From: Conexibacter sp. SYSU D00693
GTDB lineage: Bacteria; Actinomycetota; Thermoleophilia; Solirubrobacterales; Solirubrobacteraceae
Direction of reading: 5' to 3'
DNA: 64,000 nt
NCBI RefSeq assembly: GCF_017084525.1
Contig: NZ_CP070950.1
Coordinates: 3,162,001 to 3,226,000, forward strand
The notes under the pieces are model-generated. The model was not told the DNA's origin. It saw only the letters and a program-made list of their open reading frames with translations, and did no database searches. The translations under genes and the position numbers were made by a program. Shown here in pieces: positions 41,781 through 60,193 of this stretch. The number at the start of each line of letters is the position of its first letter. The first letter of the stretch is position 1.

Positions 41781-42892
41781 GCGCCGAGCCGCTGCCTTCG
41801 ATGACGGCCTTCCAGGCGCAGCTTGCCGTCATCGAGGGGGGGATGGTGGTCCCTCCGGGAGAGACACACAACCACCACCCCCCTGTTCTGGGCGCTAGAG
41901 AGCAGGCCCGGCGATGCATCCGGTTCGTCGACATGGGCGTCGAGCTCGCCAAGCCGGAGGAAGCTCAGGTCTGGCGCGTCGACCGCTTCGCCCAGGACGG
42001 CGCGCTCACGACCCTCGCCGCCCGAGGCGGTGCCGGCAAGTCATGGCTCGGGATGGCGCTATGCCACGCCGTGACGACGGGCACGCCGGCCGCTGGCATC
42101 TCCACCACGCCTGGAGTCGCCGTCTACGTCGACGGCGAGATGGGCACCCGCATGATGACCCGGCGGTGGCGTGACTGTGGGCTTCCGCGGGACGCGTTCA
42201 AGTACGTCGACGCCATGGGGCTCGACCTCGGCGCCCAGGCGGGCGTTGACGCCCTCGCCGAGGCCCTCGCCCGGGTGCAGGCGCGCTTCATCGTGTTCGA
42301 CTCGCTTCGTCGCCTTGCCCCCGGCAAGAAGGAGAACGAGTCCGACGACATGGCCCCCCTCGTCGCCTCGTTGGCGAACGTGTGCCGCGAGCTCGACGCC
42401 GCCGGCCTGCTCCTCCACCACGCAGGACACGATGACACCCGGGCCGTGCGCGGCTCGTCCGCCATCGTCGACCAGTCCGACGCCGTCTTCACCGCCCGCC
42501 GCCTCGCTGACACGACGATCAGCCTCGAGTGCGATCCGCTGAAGGGCGGCAAGTTCCGCATGGACGAGGAGCCCCCAGCCCGGCTGCTGAAGATCGTGGC
42601 CCATGGGGGGAGGGTGGTGGTCGAGGGATCCCCCCTTGCGACCACCACCACCCCCCGCCAATCCGCGTCTGACCGGATGACCGAGCGCATCCAACAGGTC
42701 ATGCGCGAGGAGGCAACGCCGCTGCGAAAGACAGCGATCGCCGAGCTATGCGTGGTCAGCGCGGACACGCCGTCTTTCAGGGACGCGTTCAGGCAACTGC
42801 GGCGCCTCGACGTGGTGGTCGAAACCGAGCACGGCTTCGTCCTGGCTGGCACGCCGACGCAGGACTCCATGCTCGCCGAGGCTGCACGATGA
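41777..42892 (+). CDS. RepA-like hexameric helicase/ATPase (AAA_25)
   Basis: A 371-residue RecA-fold ATPase. Walker A is ARGGAGKSWLG with Lys88; Walker B is FIVFDSLRRL. The sensor stretch LLLHHAGHDDTRAVRGSSAIVDQSD is characteristic of RepA/DnaB-like plasmid helicases. The C-terminal 90 residues resemble a winged helix (LRKTAIAELCVVSADTPSFRDAFRQLRRL). The start overlaps the primase stop and the stop overlaps the excisionase-like start, both as ATGA. The likely role is unwinding at the element's origin, perhaps at the AAAGGANNN array brought near after circularisation. Confidence 0.85.
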   Translation: MSAEPLPSMTAFQAQLAVIEGGMVVPPGETHNHHPPVLGAREQARRCIRFVDMGVELAKPEEAQVWRVDRFAQDGALTTLAARGGAGKSWLGMALCHAVTTGTPAAGISTTPGVAVYVDGEMGTRMMTRRWRDCGLPRDAFKYVDAMGLDLGAQAGVDALAEALARVQARFIVFDSLRRLAPGKKENESDDMAPLVASLANVCRELDAAGLLLHHAGHDDTRAVRGSSAIVDQSDAVFTARRLADTTISLECDPLKGGKFRMDEEPPARLLKIVAHGGRVVVEGSPLATTTTPRQSASDRMTERIQQVMREEATPLRKTAIAELCVVSADTPSFRDAFRQLRRLDVVVETEHGFVLAGTPTQDSMLAEAAR

Positions 42893-43173
42893 CCCAGGCG
42901 AACGTCGACAGCGTGGCTGCCCTCGTCGCTGCCGTTCTCGAGATCCCTGGCGTCGCCGAGGCCGTCGAGCGAGTGGGTGCACGACCGCCCGCAGCGCTGT
43001 CAGAGCCGCTGCTGACCGTCGACGACGTTGCCCATCTGCTCGGCCTGCCTGCGAAGACGGTCCGGCAGTACGCCCGAGAGGGGCGCCTGCCGGCCGTCAA
43101 GATCGGAAGCGGGTGGCGATTCGCTCGCGCTGAGGTCCACCAGTACCTCCGCGCGGGGACACTGGCCGCCTAG
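42889..43173 (+). CDS. Excisionase-like helix-turn-helix protein
   Basis: A 94-residue product. The C-terminal half is a MerR-like/HTH_17 domain: LLTVDDVAHLLGLPAKTVRQYAREGRLPAVKIGSGWRF in outline, ending RAEVHQYL. This is the standard layout of Xis-type directionality factors next to tyrosine integrases. It is translationally coupled to the RepA-like gene (ATGA overlap) and convergent with the integrase (four-base stop overlap). The coupling would link excision with replication. The N-terminal 45 residues are helical. Confidence 0.8.
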   Translation: MTQANVDSVAALVAAVLEIPGVAEAVERVGARPPAALSEPLLTVDDVAHLLGLPAKTVRQYAREGRLPAVKIGSGWRFARAEVHQYLRAGTLAA

Positions 43174-44540
43174 GGCCTGGCCTCCGAGCCCTCCGCGGCG
43201 GAGGAAGTCTCAAGCGCGGCTAGAGGGTTCACCTCGACTGCGAACGCGCGCGACAGGCGGTCGGCGGCGTCCTGCTTCGGCAGGTAGTGGGCGTAGACCA
43301 TCGTCGTCTCGATCGACGCGTGGCCAAGCCACTCCTTGATCTCGACCAGCGTGGCGCCATGAGCGGCAGCCATCGTCGCGAACGAATGGCGCAGGTCGTG
43401 CCAGCGCAGCTTCTTGCCGACGCCGGCGGCGACAAGCGCCCGCTTGAACGCCTTGTCGGCCCCGCCGTGATCAACCACACCGCCCGCCGAGTTGACGAAC
43501 ACGAGGTCGTCGTCGAACGTCCAGGCCTCACGCTGGCGAAGGCGCGCGAGCTCCGCGGCCGCCTGGTCGATCAAAGGCAACGACCTCGACCTCTTGCCCT
43601 TCGTCCGGCCGGCCTCGGTGGGCGAAAGACGCGTCGGCATGTTCCGCTCCACCCGCAAGGAGCGCGCCGCGAAGTCGACGTCCCTCCAGCGCAGTGCCCG
43701 CAACTCGCCCGCTCGCAGCCCGGTCCAGGCTGACACGCGGATCATCGACGCGTACAGGCCCGCCATGTACCTACGCGCCTCGGTGACGCGCTCTGCCTGT
43801 CGTTCGCTGACGGCGCCGCGCTGCCCGTCCTGGCGCAACGTCTCGCGTGGCGTCTCGGGCAGCCAGTCGCCCTCCGCGGCAGCCGCTACCGCGATGACCT
43901 CCTCGGGCTGCAGAAAGACGATGCCCGCCGCCTTTCGTGCAGGCGCCGGCCGCTTGACGTCGCGCATGGGATTGCCCGGCAGCCATCGCTTCTCGACCGC
44001 TCGAGCGAGGGTTCCCGACAGCACGCTGTGCGCCATCCGTCGGTTGCCGCGGCTCACCCCTCGCTCAGCCATCTTCTCCATGGCCAGGTCTAGGCGGCTG
44101 ACGTCGAGCCGCCGCAGCGGCGTCGATGCCGGCAGGACCGGCAGCACGTGCAACTGCCAAACCGATCGGTAGGACTGCAGGCTTCCAACCGACAGGTCCT
44201 TCTCGTGCTCGGCATGGCGCACGTACTCGTCGAACGCATCGCCGAGCGTCCTCACTCCCGGCTTGGCCGCGAAGACGTGGCGTCCCTTCTCGGCGGCCAT
44301 GAGCTCCGCCAGCGCCTCCTGGGCCTCCTTCGGGGTCAGGTGCCCGTCGGGCTTAGGGCCGTCTGCGGTGCGCCAGACGACGGCGCCCCGCGCCGTCCGT
44401 CGGCCGGAGTCCTTGACCCACGCCGGGCCGAGAACCTTGCGGGTGGGTGTCCCCTCGGCGCGCATGTACTTGGCGACCCACACGCGCCCGCCCGCACGCG
44501 GCTCCACCCGGACGTGTCCGCTAATCCGTGGCGCGCTCAC
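43170..44540 (-). CDS. int: Tyrosine integrase of the element
   Basis: A 456-residue product. The catalytic core has Arg in WTGLRAGELRALRW, HDLRHSFATMAA (HxxR), LGHASIETTMVYAHY with the nucleophilic Tyr. The SAM-like core-binding domain covers LGDAFDEYVRHAEHEKDLSVGSL onward, and the N-terminal 90 residues could be an arm-binding domain (RVWVAKYMRAEG). GTG 44540 was chosen because it begins the conserved AP2-like N-terminus. It should catalyse integration at the 27-base polX site and, with the excisionase-like protein, excision. It lies about 580 bases from attR. Confidence 0.92.
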   Translation of the reverse strand: MSAPRISGHVRVEPRAGGRVWVAKYMRAEGTPTRKVLGPAWVKDSGRRTARGAVVWRTADGPKPDGHLTPKEAQEALAELMAAEKGRHVFAAKPGVRTLGDAFDEYVRHAEHEKDLSVGSLQSYRSVWQLHVLPVLPASTPLRRLDVSRLDLAMEKMAERGVSRGNRRMAHSVLSGTLARAVEKRWLPGNPMRDVKRPAPARKAAGIVFLQPEEVIAVAAAAEGDWLPETPRETLRQDGQRGAVSERQAERVTEARRYMAGLYASMIRVSAWTGLRAGELRALRWRDVDFAARSLRVERNMPTRLSPTEAGRTKGKRSRSLPLIDQAAAELARLRQREAWTFDDDLVFVNSAGGVVDHGGADKAFKRALVAAGVGKKLRWHDLRHSFATMAAAHGATLVEIKEWLGHASIETTMVYAHYLPKQDAADRLSRAFAVEVNPLAALETSSAAEGSEARP

Positions 44541-44620
44541 CGCTCTGCGCTCTTCGTGGTGACGGCCCGAAGGCGATGCCTCCGGGCCGTCGACTCGCTC
44601 GTCATGGACGGTGGACGTCC

Positions 44621-44923
44621 CTAGCCGAGGGCGAACTCGAGGAGGACGTCCCCGGGCTGCTCGACCCCGCTGATGGCGAGCCCGACCATGTCGGCGGCCT
44701 CCTCGTAGAAGTCGACGGACGGGCCGTCGTCGCCGAGGTGGTCGTTGATGGCGGCGATCAGCTCGCCGTGGTGGCGGACCATGGTGCTCGCCAGCTGACC
44801 GCCGGCCTCGCGGCGCTGGCCGGCGAAGGCATGGCCGAGGATCGTGTCCACCTGGTTGATGGAGTTGGCCCGGATCTTGCGCAGCTCGCTGGGAGTCCGC
44901 TCGTCGATACCGTGGATCTGCAT
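44621..44923 (-). CDS. Small hypothetical protein beside the integrase
   Basis: 100 residues, mainly helical and acidic (ERTPSELRKIRANSINQVDTIL; VDFYEEAADMVGLAISGVEQPG). A good ribosome site, AGAGGTGAG, precedes ATG 44923, which supports it as a real gene. It is upstream of int on the same strand and may be co-transcribed. No family recognised; a regulator or small phage-type protein is possible. Confidence 0.6.
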   Translation of the reverse strand: MQIHGIDERTPSELRKIRANSINQVDTILGHAFAGQRREAGGQLASTMVRHHGELIAAINDHLGDDGPSVDFYEEAADMVGLAISGVEQPGDVLLEFALG

Positions 44924-45017
44924 CGATACTCACCTCTCGGTGCCGGGGCCGGGGTGCTGCAACACCGCCGGCCCGTCTCTTTTCCGGGGCTCAGTCGAGT
45001 CCCGCTGATGGGCTGCT

Positions 45018-45119: not shown

Positions 45120-45146
45120 ATGCCCGACCCCTCCAACGCCCAGATC
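45120..45146 (+). repeat. attR (right attachment repeat, start of polX)
   Basis: Identical over 27 bases to 27779-27805. It encodes MPDPSNAQI of the intact polX. The sequence upstream (44924-45119) belongs to the element and holds no further gene. Confidence 0.9.
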
Positions 45147-46850
45147 GCCGCGGCCTTCGACGAGCTCGGCGACCTCTACGAGCTCGACGGCGCGATCGTG
45201 CATCGCGTCGTGGCCTACCGCAACGCGGCGAAGGCGGTGCGCGAGGCGCCGGTGTCGATCGCCGCGCTCACGCGCGAGGGGAAGGTCACGCAGCTGCCCG
45301 GGATCGGCAAGACGCTCGAGGAGAAGATCAGCGCGCTGCTCGAGACCGGGACGATCCCGGCGGCGGAGAAGCTGCGGGCGAAGTTCCCGCCCGGGCTGGT
45401 GGACATGACACGCCTGCCGGGCGTGGGGCCCAAGCGGGTGCGCAAGCTCTTCGACCAGCTCGGGATCGCGTCGCTCGACGCGCTGCGCGAGGCGGCCGAG
45501 CAGCAGCAGCTGCGCGACGTGAAGGGCTTCGGGCCGAAGTTCGAGGAGACCGTCCTTGCCGCGTTTGCGGCGGGGGTGGCGGAGAAGGCGGCGCCGCGGA
45601 CGCTCCTGCACCGGGCGACGGACATGGCGGCGGCGATCGTCGACGCGTTGCAGGCCCATCCGTCGGCGGGGACGGTGGCGGTCGCGGGCGGCGTACGGCG
45701 GCTCACCGAGTCGGTCAAGGACCTCGACGTCATCGCGACCTCCGACGACCCTGCGGGCCTGGCCGGCGCGCTGGGCGAGCTCGACCTCGTCGAGTCCTGC
45801 AGCGTCGCCGGCGAGGCGGGCGCACGGGCACGGACGCACACGGGCATGCCGATCGACCTGCGGGTCGTGGCGCCCGACCAGCTCGGCAACCTCCTGCAGC
45901 ACTTCACCGGCTCGAAGGCCCACAACGTGCGCCTGCGCGAGATGGCGGTGCGCAAGGGGCTGCACGTCTCCGAGTACGGCGTGCTGGACGACGCGACGGG
46001 CACGACGCACCGCTGCGCGACCGAGGAGGAGGTCTACGCGCTGCTGGGTCTGCCGTGGATCGCGCCCGAGCTGCGCGAGGACCGCGGCGAGCTCGACGCC
46101 GGCTTCATCCACCCGGAGCTCGTCACCCAGGAGGACCTGCGCGGCGACCTGCACTGCCACACGATCGCCTCGGACGGCCGCGCGACGATCGAGGGCATGG
46201 CGCACGCGGCGCAGGCCCGCGGCCTCGAGTACCTCTGCATCACCGACCACTCGGCGACGCACGGCTTCGGCAACGACGTCCCCGCCGACGAGCTGCTGCG
46301 CCAGGTCGAGCGCGTGCGCGAGGTCGACGCGTCCATGGACGGCTTCACGCTGCTCATCGGGACCGAGACGAACATCCTCCCCGACGGCCGGCCCGACTAC
46401 GACGACGACGTGCTCGCCCAGCTCGACTGGGTGGTCGGCTCGGTCCACACCCAGTTCCAGATGGGCGAGGCGGAGATGACCAAGCGCATCGTCGCCGCGC
46501 TCGAGCACCCGATGATCGACTGCCTCGGCCACCCGACCGGCCGCCTCATCGAACGGCGCGAGGGCTACACCTTCGACCTCGACGCGGTCCTCGACGCCGC
46601 CAGGCGCACGGGCTCGATGCTCGAGATCAACGGCAACCCCAACCGCCGCGACCTGCGCGAGACCCACGCGCGCGCCGCGGCGCAGGCCGGCATCCCGATC
46701 GTCATCAACTCCGACGCCCACGGCCCCGAGACGCTGGACGTCACCCGCTGGGGCGTCGCCACGGCGCGCCGCGCCTGGCTGACCAAGGACGACGTCGTCA
46801 ACACCCTCCCCTGGAGGGACTTCGCGCCCCTGCGCAAGCGCGCGCGGTGA
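45120..46850 (+). CDS. polX: Family X DNA polymerase with PHP 3'-5' exonuclease domain
   Basis: A 576-residue product, full length. The N-terminal helix-hairpin-helix motifs are LPGIGKTLEEKI and LPGVGPKRVRKLF. The polymerase palm shows GGVRRLTESVKDLDVI (DxD) and PIDLRVV as the third carboxylate. The PHP domain holds DLHCHTIASDG, ITDHSATHG, GTETNI, EINGNPNRRDL and SDAHGPE, the metal ligands of an active nuclease. It fills short gaps in base-excision repair. The first nine codons are the attachment core, so coding is intact, but upstream DNA is element-derived. The stop codon lies within a 33-base palindrome. Confidence 0.95.
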   Translation: MPDPSNAQIAAAFDELGDLYELDGAIVHRVVAYRNAAKAVREAPVSIAALTREGKVTQLPGIGKTLEEKISALLETGTIPAAEKLRAKFPPGLVDMTRLPGVGPKRVRKLFDQLGIASLDALREAAEQQQLRDVKGFGPKFEETVLAAFAAGVAEKAAPRTLLHRATDMAAAIVDALQAHPSAGTVAVAGGVRRLTESVKDLDVIATSDDPAGLAGALGELDLVESCSVAGEAGARARTHTGMPIDLRVVAPDQLGNLLQHFTGSKAHNVRLREMAVRKGLHVSEYGVLDDATGTTHRCATEEEVYALLGLPWIAPELREDRGELDAGFIHPELVTQEDLRGDLHCHTIASDGRATIEGMAHAAQARGLEYLCITDHSATHGFGNDVPADELLRQVERVREVDASMDGFTLLIGTETNILPDGRPDYDDDVLAQLDWVVGSVHTQFQMGEAEMTKRIVAALEHPMIDCLGHPTGRLIERREGYTFDLDAVLDAARRTGSMLEINGNPNRRDLRETHARAAAQAGIPIVINSDAHGPETLDVTRWGVATARRAWLTKDDVVNTLPWRDFAPLRKRAR

Positions 46851-46879
46851 GAGGAAGGGGTCAGACCCCTCCTTCTCAC
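46847..46879 (+). repeat. 33-base palindrome, family B, at the polX stop
   Basis: 16-base arms GTGAGAGGAAGGGGTC and GACCCCTCCTTCTCAC around a central A, with two mismatches. The polX TGA stop is bases 2-4 of the element. Confidence 0.75.
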
Positions 46880-46921
46880 CCGCCCGTTTGCAGGCACTTC
46901 GTGGAGACGGTGCGCGGGGGC

Positions 46922-46954
46922 GTGCGAAGAAAGGGACAGTCCCCTGCTTCTCAC
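46922..46954 (-). repeat. 33-base palindrome, family B, at the oxidoreductase stop
   Basis: Arms GTGCGAAGAAAGGGAC and GTCCCCTGCTTCTCAC around a central A, with three mismatches. Read on the minus strand it also begins GTGA and supplies the TGA stop of the oxidoreductase gene. Confidence 0.72.
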
Positions 46955-47889
46955 ACCTCGAGGACGACCTTGCCGCGGACGTGGCCCCGCTCGAGGAGCC
47001 GGTGGGCGTCCGCGGCCCGCTCGAGGGGGAGGGTCTCCTGGACCTCGACGCGCAGCCGGCCGTCGTCGACGCGCTCGGCGAGCTCGACGAGCTCCGCGGC
47101 CGAGGGACGCACGAACGTGTAGTGGCCGCGGACGCGGGAGCGCTCCTTGACCGACGGGTCGACGATCGAGACGAGCGCGCCGCCGTCCTTGAGCACCGCC
47201 TCGGCCTGCGCCTGCCCGTCGCCGCCCACGAGGTCGAGGGCGGCGTCGAAGCCCTCGGGCGCCGCCTCGCGCAGGGCCGCCTCGACGTCCTGCGCGCCGT
47301 AGTCGACGACCGCGTCCGCGCCGAGCGAGCGCACGAAGTCGTGGTTGCGCTCCGACGCGGTGCCGACGACGCGGGCGCCGAGGTCCCGGGCGATCTGCAC
47401 CGCGACGTGGCCGACGCCGCCCGACGCGGCCGTGACGAGCACGGTCTGGCCCGCCTCGACCCGCGCGCCCTCCACGAGCGCCTGCCAGGCGGTGAGCCCG
47501 ACGAGCGGCAGGCCGCCGGCGTGCACGACGTCGACCGACCGCGGCCGCCGCGCCACCGCGCCCGCCGGCATCGCCGCGAGCTCGGCGTAGGTCCCCGCGG
47601 CGATCTCGGTCTTGCGGCAGTACGCGTAGACCGGGTCGCCCGGCTCGAGGTCGACGACGGCCGGGCCGACCGCCTCGACGACGCCCGCGGCGTCCCAGCC
47701 CAGCACGAGCGGGAAGTGGTGGGGGAAGCCGCCCTCGAGCCGGCCCTGGCGGATCTTCGTGTCGACCGGGTTGATGCCCGCCGCCTGGACCCGGATGAGG
47801 ACGCTGTCCGGTCCGACCTTCGGGTCGTCGACCTCCCGCAGCTGCATCCGGTCGGCGTCGCCGAACTCGTCGATCACGATCGCGCGCAT
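46951..47889 (-). CDS. Zinc-free quinone-oxidoreductase-type MDR protein
   Basis: A 312-residue member of the medium-chain dehydrogenase superfamily. AAGINPVDTKIRQG lacks the zinc-binding residues of alcohol dehydrogenases, as in the quinone oxidoreductase branch. The nucleotide site reads LVTAASGGVGHVAVQIARDLGARVVGTAS. WDAAGVVEAVG is a family mark. It would use NADPH to reduce quinones or enones. The gene is bracketed by two family B palindromes, one giving its stop and one 27 bases upstream of its start. It has no obvious operon partner. Confidence 0.87.
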   Translation of the reverse strand: MRAIVIDEFGDADRMQLREVDDPKVGPDSVLIRVQAAGINPVDTKIRQGRLEGGFPHHFPLVLGWDAAGVVEAVGPAVVDLEPGDPVYAYCRKTEIAAGTYAELAAMPAGAVARRPRSVDVVHAGGLPLVGLTAWQALVEGARVEAGQTVLVTAASGGVGHVAVQIARDLGARVVGTASERNHDFVRSLGADAVVDYGAQDVEAALREAAPEGFDAALDLVGGDGQAQAEAVLKDGGALVSIVDPSVKERSRVRGHYTFVRPSAAELVELAERVDDGRLRVEVQETLPLERAADAHRLLERGHVRGKVVLEV

Positions 47890-47915
47890 GCACGAGCGCC
47901 TACCCCGCGACGGCG

Positions 47916-47948
47916 ATGCGAAGAAGGGGACTGTCCCCTTCGTCGCAC
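47916..47948 (-). repeat. 33-base palindrome, family B, between oxidoreductase and GT4 genes
   Basis: Arms ATGCGAAGAAGGGGAC and GTCCCCTTCGTCGCAC around a central T, with two mismatches. It ends six bases from the stop of the GT4 gene. Confidence 0.72.
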
Positions 47949-47953
47949 GGCGG

Positions 47954-48952
47954 CTAGCGGTCGAGGAGCGCGGGAACCAGCCGCTCGGCGACCACGGCGT
48001 CCACGCTGGCGCGCCGGAACGGGGCGACCGCGGCGAGCGCCCGCTCGGCCCAGCCGTCGTCCGGAGCGTCGAGCGCCGCGCGCAGGGCGCCCGCCAGCGC
48101 GGCCTCCTCGACGACGAACCCGTCCCCGAGACCCCGCAGGACCGGCAGCGCCGCGTAGGGCCCCGGCGCGGGTGTCGTCACGACCCGGCAGCCGTCGGCC
48201 AGCGCCTCGAGCTGGGCGAGGCCGAAGTCCTCGCGGCGGGGCGCCGTGACGAAGACCCGCGCGCGGCGCACGAGCGCCCGGTACGCGGTCGGCTCCAGGC
48301 GGCCCGCGAAGCGCACGCCCTCCACCGGCCCGAACGCCGCGCCCTGCTGCGCGTCGACGCCCGCCACCACCAGCTCCTCGCCCGGCCGCCGCGCCGCCGC
48401 CCAGGCGGCGAGCACCCGGTCCAGGCCCTTCTTCGCCGGGTTCGTCGCGTAGGTGATCGCCGCGAGGTCGCGCGTCCCCCCGGCGGGCCCGCTCGGCTCG
48501 ACCGGGATCGGCACGACGACGACCCGCTCCTGCGCCACCGCGACCCCCGCCTCCGCCAGCGCCCCCGCGTCCTGGGGCACGAGCAGCGGCGCCGCCGCGA
48601 GCCGGCGGCGCTCCACCGGCCGCTGCCAGACCCCGTGGCGGCCGGGGCGGTTCACCGCGGCGAGCGCGTCGAAGCGGATCGCCCCCGGCTCGGGCCACAG
48701 CGCCGCCGCCGTCGTCGTCGAGTAGACGACGGCCCGCGGCCGCGCCGACCGCAGCGCCTCGCGCGCCGCCGCCCGCGCCGCCCGCGCCCACACCAGGTCC
48801 GTCAGGGCCAGCGTGCGCACCTCGCCCGGCGCCCGCGGGACCGCCCGCCGCACGCCCACTCCCGCACGCTCGAGCGACGACGCCAGCTCGTCCTCGGCCG
48901 CGCGCAGCCCGGCGGTCGAGCCCAGGCAGACGAGGAGCACGTCGGGCGCCAC
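47954..48952 (-). CDS. GT4-family glycosyltransferase
   Basis: A 332-residue GT-B fold protein. The C-terminal donor site is recognisable: ITYATNPAKKGLDRVLAAWA, VRFAGRLEPTAYRALVRRARVFVTAPRREDFGLAQLEALADGC, the EDFGLAQLEA segment being the usual E-x7-E motif of GT4. The N-terminal acceptor domain is less conserved (VLLVCLGSTAGLRAAEDELASSL). It begins with GTG 48952, nearly adjacent to the divergent DUF554 gene. Donor and acceptor are unknown; cell-surface glycan synthesis is likely. Confidence 0.82.
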   Translation of the reverse strand: MAPDVLLVCLGSTAGLRAAEDELASSLERAGVGVRRAVPRAPGEVRTLALTDLVWARAARAAAREALRSARPRAVVYSTTTAAALWPEPGAIRFDALAAVNRPGRHGVWQRPVERRRLAAAPLLVPQDAGALAEAGVAVAQERVVVVPIPVEPSGPAGGTRDLAAITYATNPAKKGLDRVLAAWAAARRPGEELVVAGVDAQQGAAFGPVEGVRFAGRLEPTAYRALVRRARVFVTAPRREDFGLAQLEALADGCRVVTTPAPGPYAALPVLRGLGDGFVVEEAALAGALRAALDAPDDGWAERALAAVAPFRRASVDAVVAERLVPALLDR

Positions 48953-59482: not shown

Positions 59483-60193
59483 ATGCTCCGCCAGTTCGAC
59501 CTCGGACGCACGCTCTCGGCCGCGGGCGCCGTCCTGCTGCTCGTCTCGCTGTTCCTCAAGTGGTACGACGAGGCGTCGGCGTGGGAGTCCTTCGAGGTGC
59601 TCGACCTCGCGCTCGCTGCGCTGGCGCTGGCGACGATCGCCGCGGCGCTGCGCGAGGACGTCGTGCCCGACACGCTGCTGCGCTGGCTGCCGGTGCTCGC
59701 CTTCGCCGTCGTGGCGCTGCAGCTCATCCACCCGCCGCCGGTCATCCAGCTGCTCGACGACGTGGGTGGGGGCGACACGTCCATCCCGCTGAGCGAGGGC
59801 GCATGGCTCGGCCTCGCCGCGACCGCGCTCATGAGCGCGGGCGCCGTCCTCGGCCTCGCGCGGATCTCGATCTCCGTCGACGTGGCCGACCGCCGCTCGC
59901 CCGCGGAGGGTCCGGACGGCACCGTCGCGGGGTCCGCGGCCACGCCGCCCACGCCGCACGACGCGCCGACGACGGCACCCGCACCGCGTGGGGGCTCGCT
60001 CTTCGGCGGCCCGCGGCGGCCCGAGCCCGACGAGGTCGACGCGCCGCCGCCGCCCGCGCGTGAGCCCGAGCCGACGCCGCCGCACGACGACGAGGTGCGC
60101 GAGGTCCCGGCGGTCGACCGCCGCCAGCCCGCGCCCAGCGCCGACGAGCCCGACCCGACCCAGCCGCTGCGGCTGCCGCCGGACGCGCAGTGA
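59483..60193 (+). CDS. Membrane protein with long Pro-rich cytoplasmic tail
   Basis: 236 residues from ATG 59483 (GTG 59447 would add 12). Four hydrophobic helices: LSAAGAVLLLVSLFLKWY, LDLALAALALATIAAAL, LLRWLPVLAFAVVALQLIH, GAWLGLAATALMSAGAVLGL. The rest is Pro/Asp/Glu-rich and probably disordered, ending DPTQPLRLPPDAQ. A similar short motif (DATRPF, DETQPMAI) recurs in the next gene's tail, like phospho-threonine (FHA-target) motifs. It is coupled to the next gene by GTGA overlap. Confidence 0.65.
   Translation: MLRQFDLGRTLSAAGAVLLLVSLFLKWYDEASAWESFEVLDLALAALALATIAAALREDVVPDTLLRWLPVLAFAVVALQLIHPPPVIQLLDDVGGGDTSIPLSEGAWLGLAATALMSAGAVLGLARISISVDVADRRSPAEGPDGTVAGSAATPPTPHDAPTTAPAPRGGSLFGGPRRPEPDEVDAPPPPAREPEPTPPHDDEVREVPAVDRRQPAPSADEPDPTQPLRLPPDAQ

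Follow-up and report, generated by a model that had tools for sequence, protein, structure and literature searches.

Palindromic REP-like repeats of Conexibacter sp. SYSU D00693 lie at gene ends, supply stop codons and may bound an inserted oxidoreductase gene

Overview

The three palindromes which separate the polX and GT4 genes in the window, i.e., the whole stretch of 64,000 nucleotides analysed here (G000:C1:3162001-3226000, where G000 is this genome, of 4.43 Mb), are probably non-autonomous copies of the REP/TIR type, spread by a linked transposase, kept at gene ends by a filter, devoid of an intrinsic terminator function, and bounding the insertion of an oxidoreductase gene. The stop-supplying repeat family is real and well supported, and the reading of a gene-sized segment is bolder. 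The spread of REP repeats and their placement at gene ends represent an unsettled question, and three palindrome families carrying TGA or TAA in one and the same register offer a simple and testable account of the survival of mobile repeats in a tightly packed genome. If it is true that segments between REPs travel as units, the role of REP transposases would extend to the movement of genes.

The Palindromes of the polX–GT4 Junction

A sequence-only reading of the window had described three 33-base elements of 16+1+16 geometry at positions 46847, 46922 and 47916, coordinates which proved to be right (Table 1), with 14, 13 and 14 of the 16 arm positions paired in palindromes 1, 2 and 3, respectively. 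The core consists of GGGGTC/GACCCC or GGGGAC/GTCCCC with A or T in the centre, in overall agreement with that description, except for palindrome 2, which has AGGGAC in one arm. The two elements with a GTGA terminus do provide the TGA codons of polX and of the oxidoreductase gene, as had been read from the letters, and the third one adjoins the stop of GT4; since this codon occupies positions 47956-47954 (- strand), the gap is five bases and not six as previously given.

Table 1. Positions of the palindromes and of the associated genes (window numbering, unless a genome position is given).
Feature	Position	Strand	Remarks
polX-type DNA polymerase	45120..46850	+	Pfam: HHH, pol beta thumb and PHP domains
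Family B palindrome 1	46847..46879	+	GTGA terminus is the polX TGA stop (46848-46850, bases 2-4 of the element)
Spacer of the palindrome 1/2 pair	46880..46921	.	42 bases; box ACGAAGTNCCTGCA at 46889-46902 (- strand)
Family B palindrome 2	46922..46954	-	GTGA terminus on the - strand is the oxidoreductase TGA stop (46953-46951, bases 2-4 read on -)
Zinc-binding alcohol dehydrogenase / quinone oxidoreductase-like gene	46951..47889	-	Pfam; extra gene at the polX-GT4 junction
Family B palindrome 3	47916..47948	-	TGC-type terminus without stop codon; separated from the GT4 stop by 5 bases and from the oxidoreductase start by 26
Glycosyltransferase family 4-like gene (GT4)	47954..48952	-	Pfam; immediate convergent neighbour of polX in five relatives
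Interval from palindrome 1 to palindrome 3	46847..47948	.	Candidate insertion bounded by REPs; relatives lack it between polX and GT4
REP-associated tyrosine (HuH, IS200/IS605-like) transposase gene	G000:C1:3380488-3381216		243 aa; between two copies of the palindrome

A Dispersed Repeat Family

Inside the window, a search for the short core alone with 2 mismatches allowed gives 7 matches, no more than expected by chance (10.3 in shuffles); the signal rests on the full length of the elements and on their recurrence throughout the genome. A genome-wide pattern search with GAAGNAGGGGWCWGWCCCC (one arm plus core, at most 2 mismatches), of the kind proposed along with the initial description, yields 70 + 65 strand matches in G000 and 0 + 0 for the reversed control. 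A covariance model of the family, built from 41 distinct copies out of the 63 G000 elements found by weight matrix, gives at least 129 strand matches in at least about 65 places, a lower bound as 150 of the 1995 first-look candidates were scored. Paired positions co-vary beyond shuffled or slid controls, with 24 cells changed on both sides for a shuffled mean of 12. Two main termini occur among the G000 copies, GTGAGAAG (38 ends), which carries TGA, and GTGCGAAG (30 ends), which carries no stop. Many copies are paired, with spacings of 65-122 bases, and the box ACGAAGTNCCTGCA is exactly conserved in the pair spacers of L039, L055, L056 and L060, corresponding to the window pair and three other pairs.

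Among the 41 genomes searched, the repeat occurs exclusively in G000 and in G020, a fragmented genome, 64% complete, which is the only representative of its genus in the comparison. One scan of genome contigs, in a collection that may omit near genomes, returned two records, from Coriobacteriia and a deltaproteobacterial MAG. The idea of a mobile or REP-like element is thus backed by dozens of copies, by a linked transposase and by the co-occurrence of transposase and repeat in G020.

The REP-Associated Transposase

The transposase gene (L058 4989-5720) is enclosed by palindromes at L058 4912-4944 and 5680-5712, forming inverted repeats on both sides. Both belong to the TGC type and contain no stop, and the last transposase codons are read from the 3' palindrome in G000 (L058 5680-5712, ..KQGTVPFF..) as well as in G020 (L091, ..NQGSDP..). 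The protein possesses an IS200/IS605-type core with HuH and a catalytic Tyr, and seven rows of the transposase alignment (row L081 left out) show the motifs H-x-H and Y-I-x-x-N-P-V. It scores above the cut-off with Pfam Y1_Tnp and just below the 80-bit cut-off with NCBIfam REP_Tyr_transpos (E=5.6e-21, 75 bits), and its sole PDB match is TnpAREP 4er8 (E=0.0013). For a C-terminal helix-turn-helix, the matches are HTH_23 (E=0.0046) and similar ones, every one of them below cut-off.

Relatives of the transposase are distributed in 13 of the 41 genomes, accompanied by the repeat in G000 and G020 only. The nearest one, from G020 (51% identity), is bordered by a G020 version of the palindrome, TGAGAATGAGGGGTCWGACCCCTCATTCTCA, and G017 exhibits a different, unrelated palindrome, TTAAACGTCCWGGACGTTTAA, around its own transposase. 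The G000 genome contains three Y1_Tnp genes, the third of which, in L081 near 2230 (G000:C1:2918411-2919088), has a different palindrome, GGAAAGTGCCTGGCACTTTCC, close by. A second type of repeat, with short-armed GGGGTCTGACCCC/GGGGTCAGACCCC cores, is organized in tandem-like arrays at G000:C1:286007-287000 (L063, L085) and near 59690, 323667, 611868, 1448269, 1600888, 1643836 and 1870359, some of them on either side of another Y1_Tnp gene.

Gene Ends and Stop Codons

The location at gene ends and the supply of stop codons, first noticed for the elements of the window, hold genome-wide in G000, and also in G020 and G017. The G000 analysis set comprises 64 elements in 37 units, element and gene-end counts being derived from our own weight matrix and codon-usage gene finder, not from curated annotation. 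Of the 74 unit ends, 42 point towards the 3' end of a gene and 28 towards a gene start, the remaining 4 being without a gene nearby. The 42 ends pointing to a 3' end either provide the stop codon at their bases 2-4 (11), straddle it (2), occur beyond it (26, of which 15 within 10 bases) or are read through (3). The distance to the stop, which had been proposed as a check, falls between -4 and +10 bases for 28 of these 42 ends, and the copies are not randomly placed relative to gene ends. With respect to their termini, 11 of the 23 NTGA ends oriented towards a gene 3' end fall in register, and the TGC-type ends cluster 1-8 bases beyond stops.

In G020, 36 of the 56 ends are oriented towards a gene 3' end, including 20 in register, 1 straddling, 9 beyond the stop and 6 read through; for the NTGA unit ends so oriented, 20 of 27 are in the TGA register and 3 beyond the stop, and several copies provide stops to the convergent genes on both sides. 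For the palindrome of G017 (44 + 45 strand matches genome-wide; 22 elements examined from the 30 loci listed), 13 of the 26 ends directed at a gene 3' end provide TAA, again at bases 2-4; TAA occurs at 11 of 58 G017 stops away from elements, a count in which overlapping loci are included repeatedly. When a gene runs into an NTGA/NTAA end, its stop occupies bases 2-4 in 11 of 11 (G000), 20 of 24 (G020) and 13 of 17 (G017) cases, compared to the one third expected without selection (p = 6e-6, 7e-7 and 3e-4, respectively). This register test shows a filter or a preference, without telling which. The TGAG context is found at 48 of 191 G000 stops away from elements. As a separate observation, a 4-base overlap of stops is common in convergent pairs, amounting to exactly 4 bases in 14 of the 38 element-free pairs of the window and G000 loci, according to our own gene calls.

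The genes ending in an element were compared with their relatives. Ten G000 genes with a stop in an element were used as queries, eight of which have relatives in the loci compared, and the differences in length are small and occur in both directions. The relatives are slightly shorter on median for five of the eight genes, which does not fit simple truncation. Relatives of polX extend 1-2 residues further in 9 of 17 cases, those of the dehydrogenase (oxidoreductase) share the same end codon (2 of 2), and those of another G000 gene, presumably DNA-glycosylase-like, end at least 7 residues later (3 of 3). Among 11 G020 genes, 9 have relatives at 50% identity or more, with per-gene medians 0-1 residues longer for six genes and 4, 11 and 18 residues longer for three. 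The G020 gene which we take to be Era shares its end codon with all 9 of its relatives, five of which have ATCGAGTAG, and the gene of a presumed ferritin-like protein does so with 7 of 13. The small differences and shared end codons indicate that the stop of the element is usually at or near the old gene end. Truncation as a general rule was rejected for G000, where relatives are not longer on median, and gave a mixed result for G020. In addition, and as the only intragenic case, two palindromes (L087 3005-3070, G020) occur inside the ORF of a gene assumed to be dehydrogenase-like, adding 22 codons; a G019 relative, 84% identical, is devoid of palindromes and the net difference is 36 bases instead of 66, so that insertions may involve local replacement.

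Relationships with Known Repeat Systems

The family fits the known TIRYT/REP class. In the parts of the work of Di Nocera et al. 2013 (PMC3733652) available to us, tyrosine transposases are flanked by TIRs with a GGGGWSAS motif, some of which are self-complementary and dispersed as dimers and clusters, and, from the available text of PMC6006769, most TIRYTs belong to TnpAREP subclass 2.1, all with an HTH domain. Similarly to these TIRYT/TIRtron systems, as far as they are covered there, the HuH-Tyr transposase gene of G000 lies between inverted repeats, here self-complementary, with GGGGWSAS readable as GGGGACAG or GGGGTCAG on one strand of most aligned copies; the copies are dispersed in dimers and clusters, and the 3' repeat overlaps the transposase gene. 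In contrast, the G000 copies carry TGA in a fixed register and bound a gene segment, and the supply of stop codons by TIR-type repeats was not found described in the same parts of PMC3733652 or PMC6006769.

A resemblance also exists with the GTAG REPs associated with RAYT/TnpAREP (Nunvar 2010, PMC2817692; PMC8266576, both consulted in part), which are short palindromes near gene 3' ends with a related transposase linked to them. According to the portions available, the GTAG foot plays a guide role (PMC8266576), the GTAG termini "often provide" a TAG stop to flanking ORFs, a trait shared by the G000 termini, and convergent REPs are mostly located within 20 bases of 3' ends (PMC3733652). The G000 repeats differ from the GTAG REPs so described by full-length, nearly symmetrical arms and by NTGA or NTGC termini, mainly GTGAGAAG and GTGCGAAG; their 5' foot bears no unpaired tag, be it GTAG or GTGG. 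The pairing of copies at preferred distances and the partial conservation of the spacer recall the REPIN/BIME composites, as presented in the parts seen of PMC3116915 and PMC2817692, which differ with regard to the G000 spacings of 65-122 bases and to the orientation of the paired units, undefined here because each unit is itself palindromic. Literature searches for the core sequences and for RAYT/REPIN in Actinobacteria found no paper with an exact match and no match, respectively. To a class and a stop-codon trait which are already known, the present analysis adds the TGA/TAA versions of the stop, the register common to three families of palindromes and the segment enclosed by two of them.

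Filter, Targeting or 3' Signal

The explanation favoured here assumes that the transposase listed in Table 1 would spread copies of the palindrome, of which one terminus subtype reads N-TGA-G. An end landing at a gene end in the TGA frame would cause the gene to stop inside the element, near its old end and with its function kept, and an element entered in the other frames would be read through. Under such a filter, an insertion would persist if it disrupts no gene, whether by lying immediately 3' of a stop or by being entered in the TGA frame. An unlikely alternative is that the transposase has a preference for stop codons, or for a TAG/TGAG-like tetranucleotide, and inserts copies exactly at stops. 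The excess of TGA-register ends among the 27 NTGA ends of G020 (20 vs 3 beyond the stop), with ends next to gaps of 200-300 bases included, goes beyond a plain filter and leaves room for such targeting, to which may be added the presumed Era gene ending exactly at the ancestral codon, the frequent TGAG at element-free stops and the common 4-base overlap of convergent stops in G000. It is opposed by G000 itself, where fewer than half of the NTGA ends facing a 3' end are in register and TGC-type ends settle beyond stops, by the three G020 genes 4, 11 and 18 residues shorter than their relatives, and by the intragenic copy L087, where insertion by a T^A model would shift the frame. This T^A model, an insertion in a TAG stop restoring TGA in G020, was considered on account of outer bases that often read GTAG/CTAC, but TAG/TAA is restored at 11 of 20 ends; with the stop restored at about half of the ends and the frame shift at L087, it was dropped. 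With relatives at 50-88% identity, a pre-existing TGA as obligatory target could not be told apart from the filter.

It is still more doubtful that the hairpins are selected 3' processing or termination signals, kept to end or protect transcripts, with gene ends trimmed back onto them. The folding energies calculated for the RNA hairpins of palindromes 1, 2 and 3 (-21, -14.4 and -21.8 kcal/mol) denote stable structures, the closeness to gene 3' ends is strong and convergent genes share one palindrome or pair, all of which would suit a signal. However, no T-run follows the hairpins and a scan of positions 46500-48300 for terminator-like sites returned 0, so that by sequence the palindromes are not intrinsic (Rho-independent) terminators. 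Moreover, the repeat family occurs in 2 of 41 genomes only, the relatives managing without it, and 28 of the 74 G000 unit ends face a gene start. Accordingly, the mobile or REP-like nature, the gene-end location and the stop supply proposed by the sequence-only reading are retained, and its terminator, understood as an intrinsic one, is abandoned.

The Segment Bounded by Palindromes

Besides the filter acting on single copies, the favoured explanation includes the arrival of the oxidoreductase gene between palindromes. In L124, L114, L140, L115 and L132, GT4 and polX are immediate convergent neighbours whose stops lie 5, -4, 11, 162 and -98 bases apart, respectively, an absence of the whole interval which the sequence-only reading had missed; these five loci are part of 17 matched polX loci, the other 12 showing no GT4 match within ~1.5 kb on each side. 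The polX-GT4 junction of L115 (G011) holds a 162-base run of tandem-like repeats. Within the interval of G000, nothing else is found than the palindromes, the spacer, the dehydrogenase gene and 31 further bases (26 + 5), and the dehydrogenase was matched in 2 of 24 relatives (E <= 1e-20), on contigs other than that of polX. Owing to the direct convergence in five relatives, the segment 46847-47948 looks like an inserted REP-bounded segment with the oxidoreductase gene, palindromes 1 and 3 bounding the whole polX-GT4 separator in G000 only among the genomes compared.

There is a real possibility, though short of the favoured reading, that the oxidoreductase gene came alone and that palindromes were added independently at both ends, a scenario which competes with the REP-bounded insertion only and agrees with the general tendency of palindromes to settle near gene ends. 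It is less easily reconciled with a separator reduced, beyond the palindromes and the gene, to the 42-base spacer and the 26 + 5 bases, with the gaps of -4, 5 and 11 bases in three of the five relatives, and with the distances between units in G000, which include five gaps under 2 kb (735, 961, 1370, 1408 and 1555) and none of 2-10 kb. Random placement expects 0.63 gaps under ~2 kb, with P(>=5) = 0.0006. One of the short gaps contains the transposase, and others contain a winged-helix regulator plus an AHSA1 protein, and a sigma-factor gene plus a second gene. These observations suggest that segments between two palindromes may move as units. It can tentatively be imagined, with more doubt than conviction, that a REP-associated transposase, usually regarded as a spreader of tiny palindromes only, is able to move whole gene segments located between two palindromes and that the stop codon at the tip would spare both reading frames at the landing junction; polX-[E1-E2-oxidoreductase-E3]-GT4 would then represent one case, and further cases would be the intervals of 1.4-1.6 kb at G000:C1:2519415-2520818, 3340049-3341490 and 3378823-3380411.

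Just upstream of polX, a tyrosine recombinase-like frame (43170-44933, -) and a small excisionase-like HTH frame (42748-43173, +) were recognized by eye.
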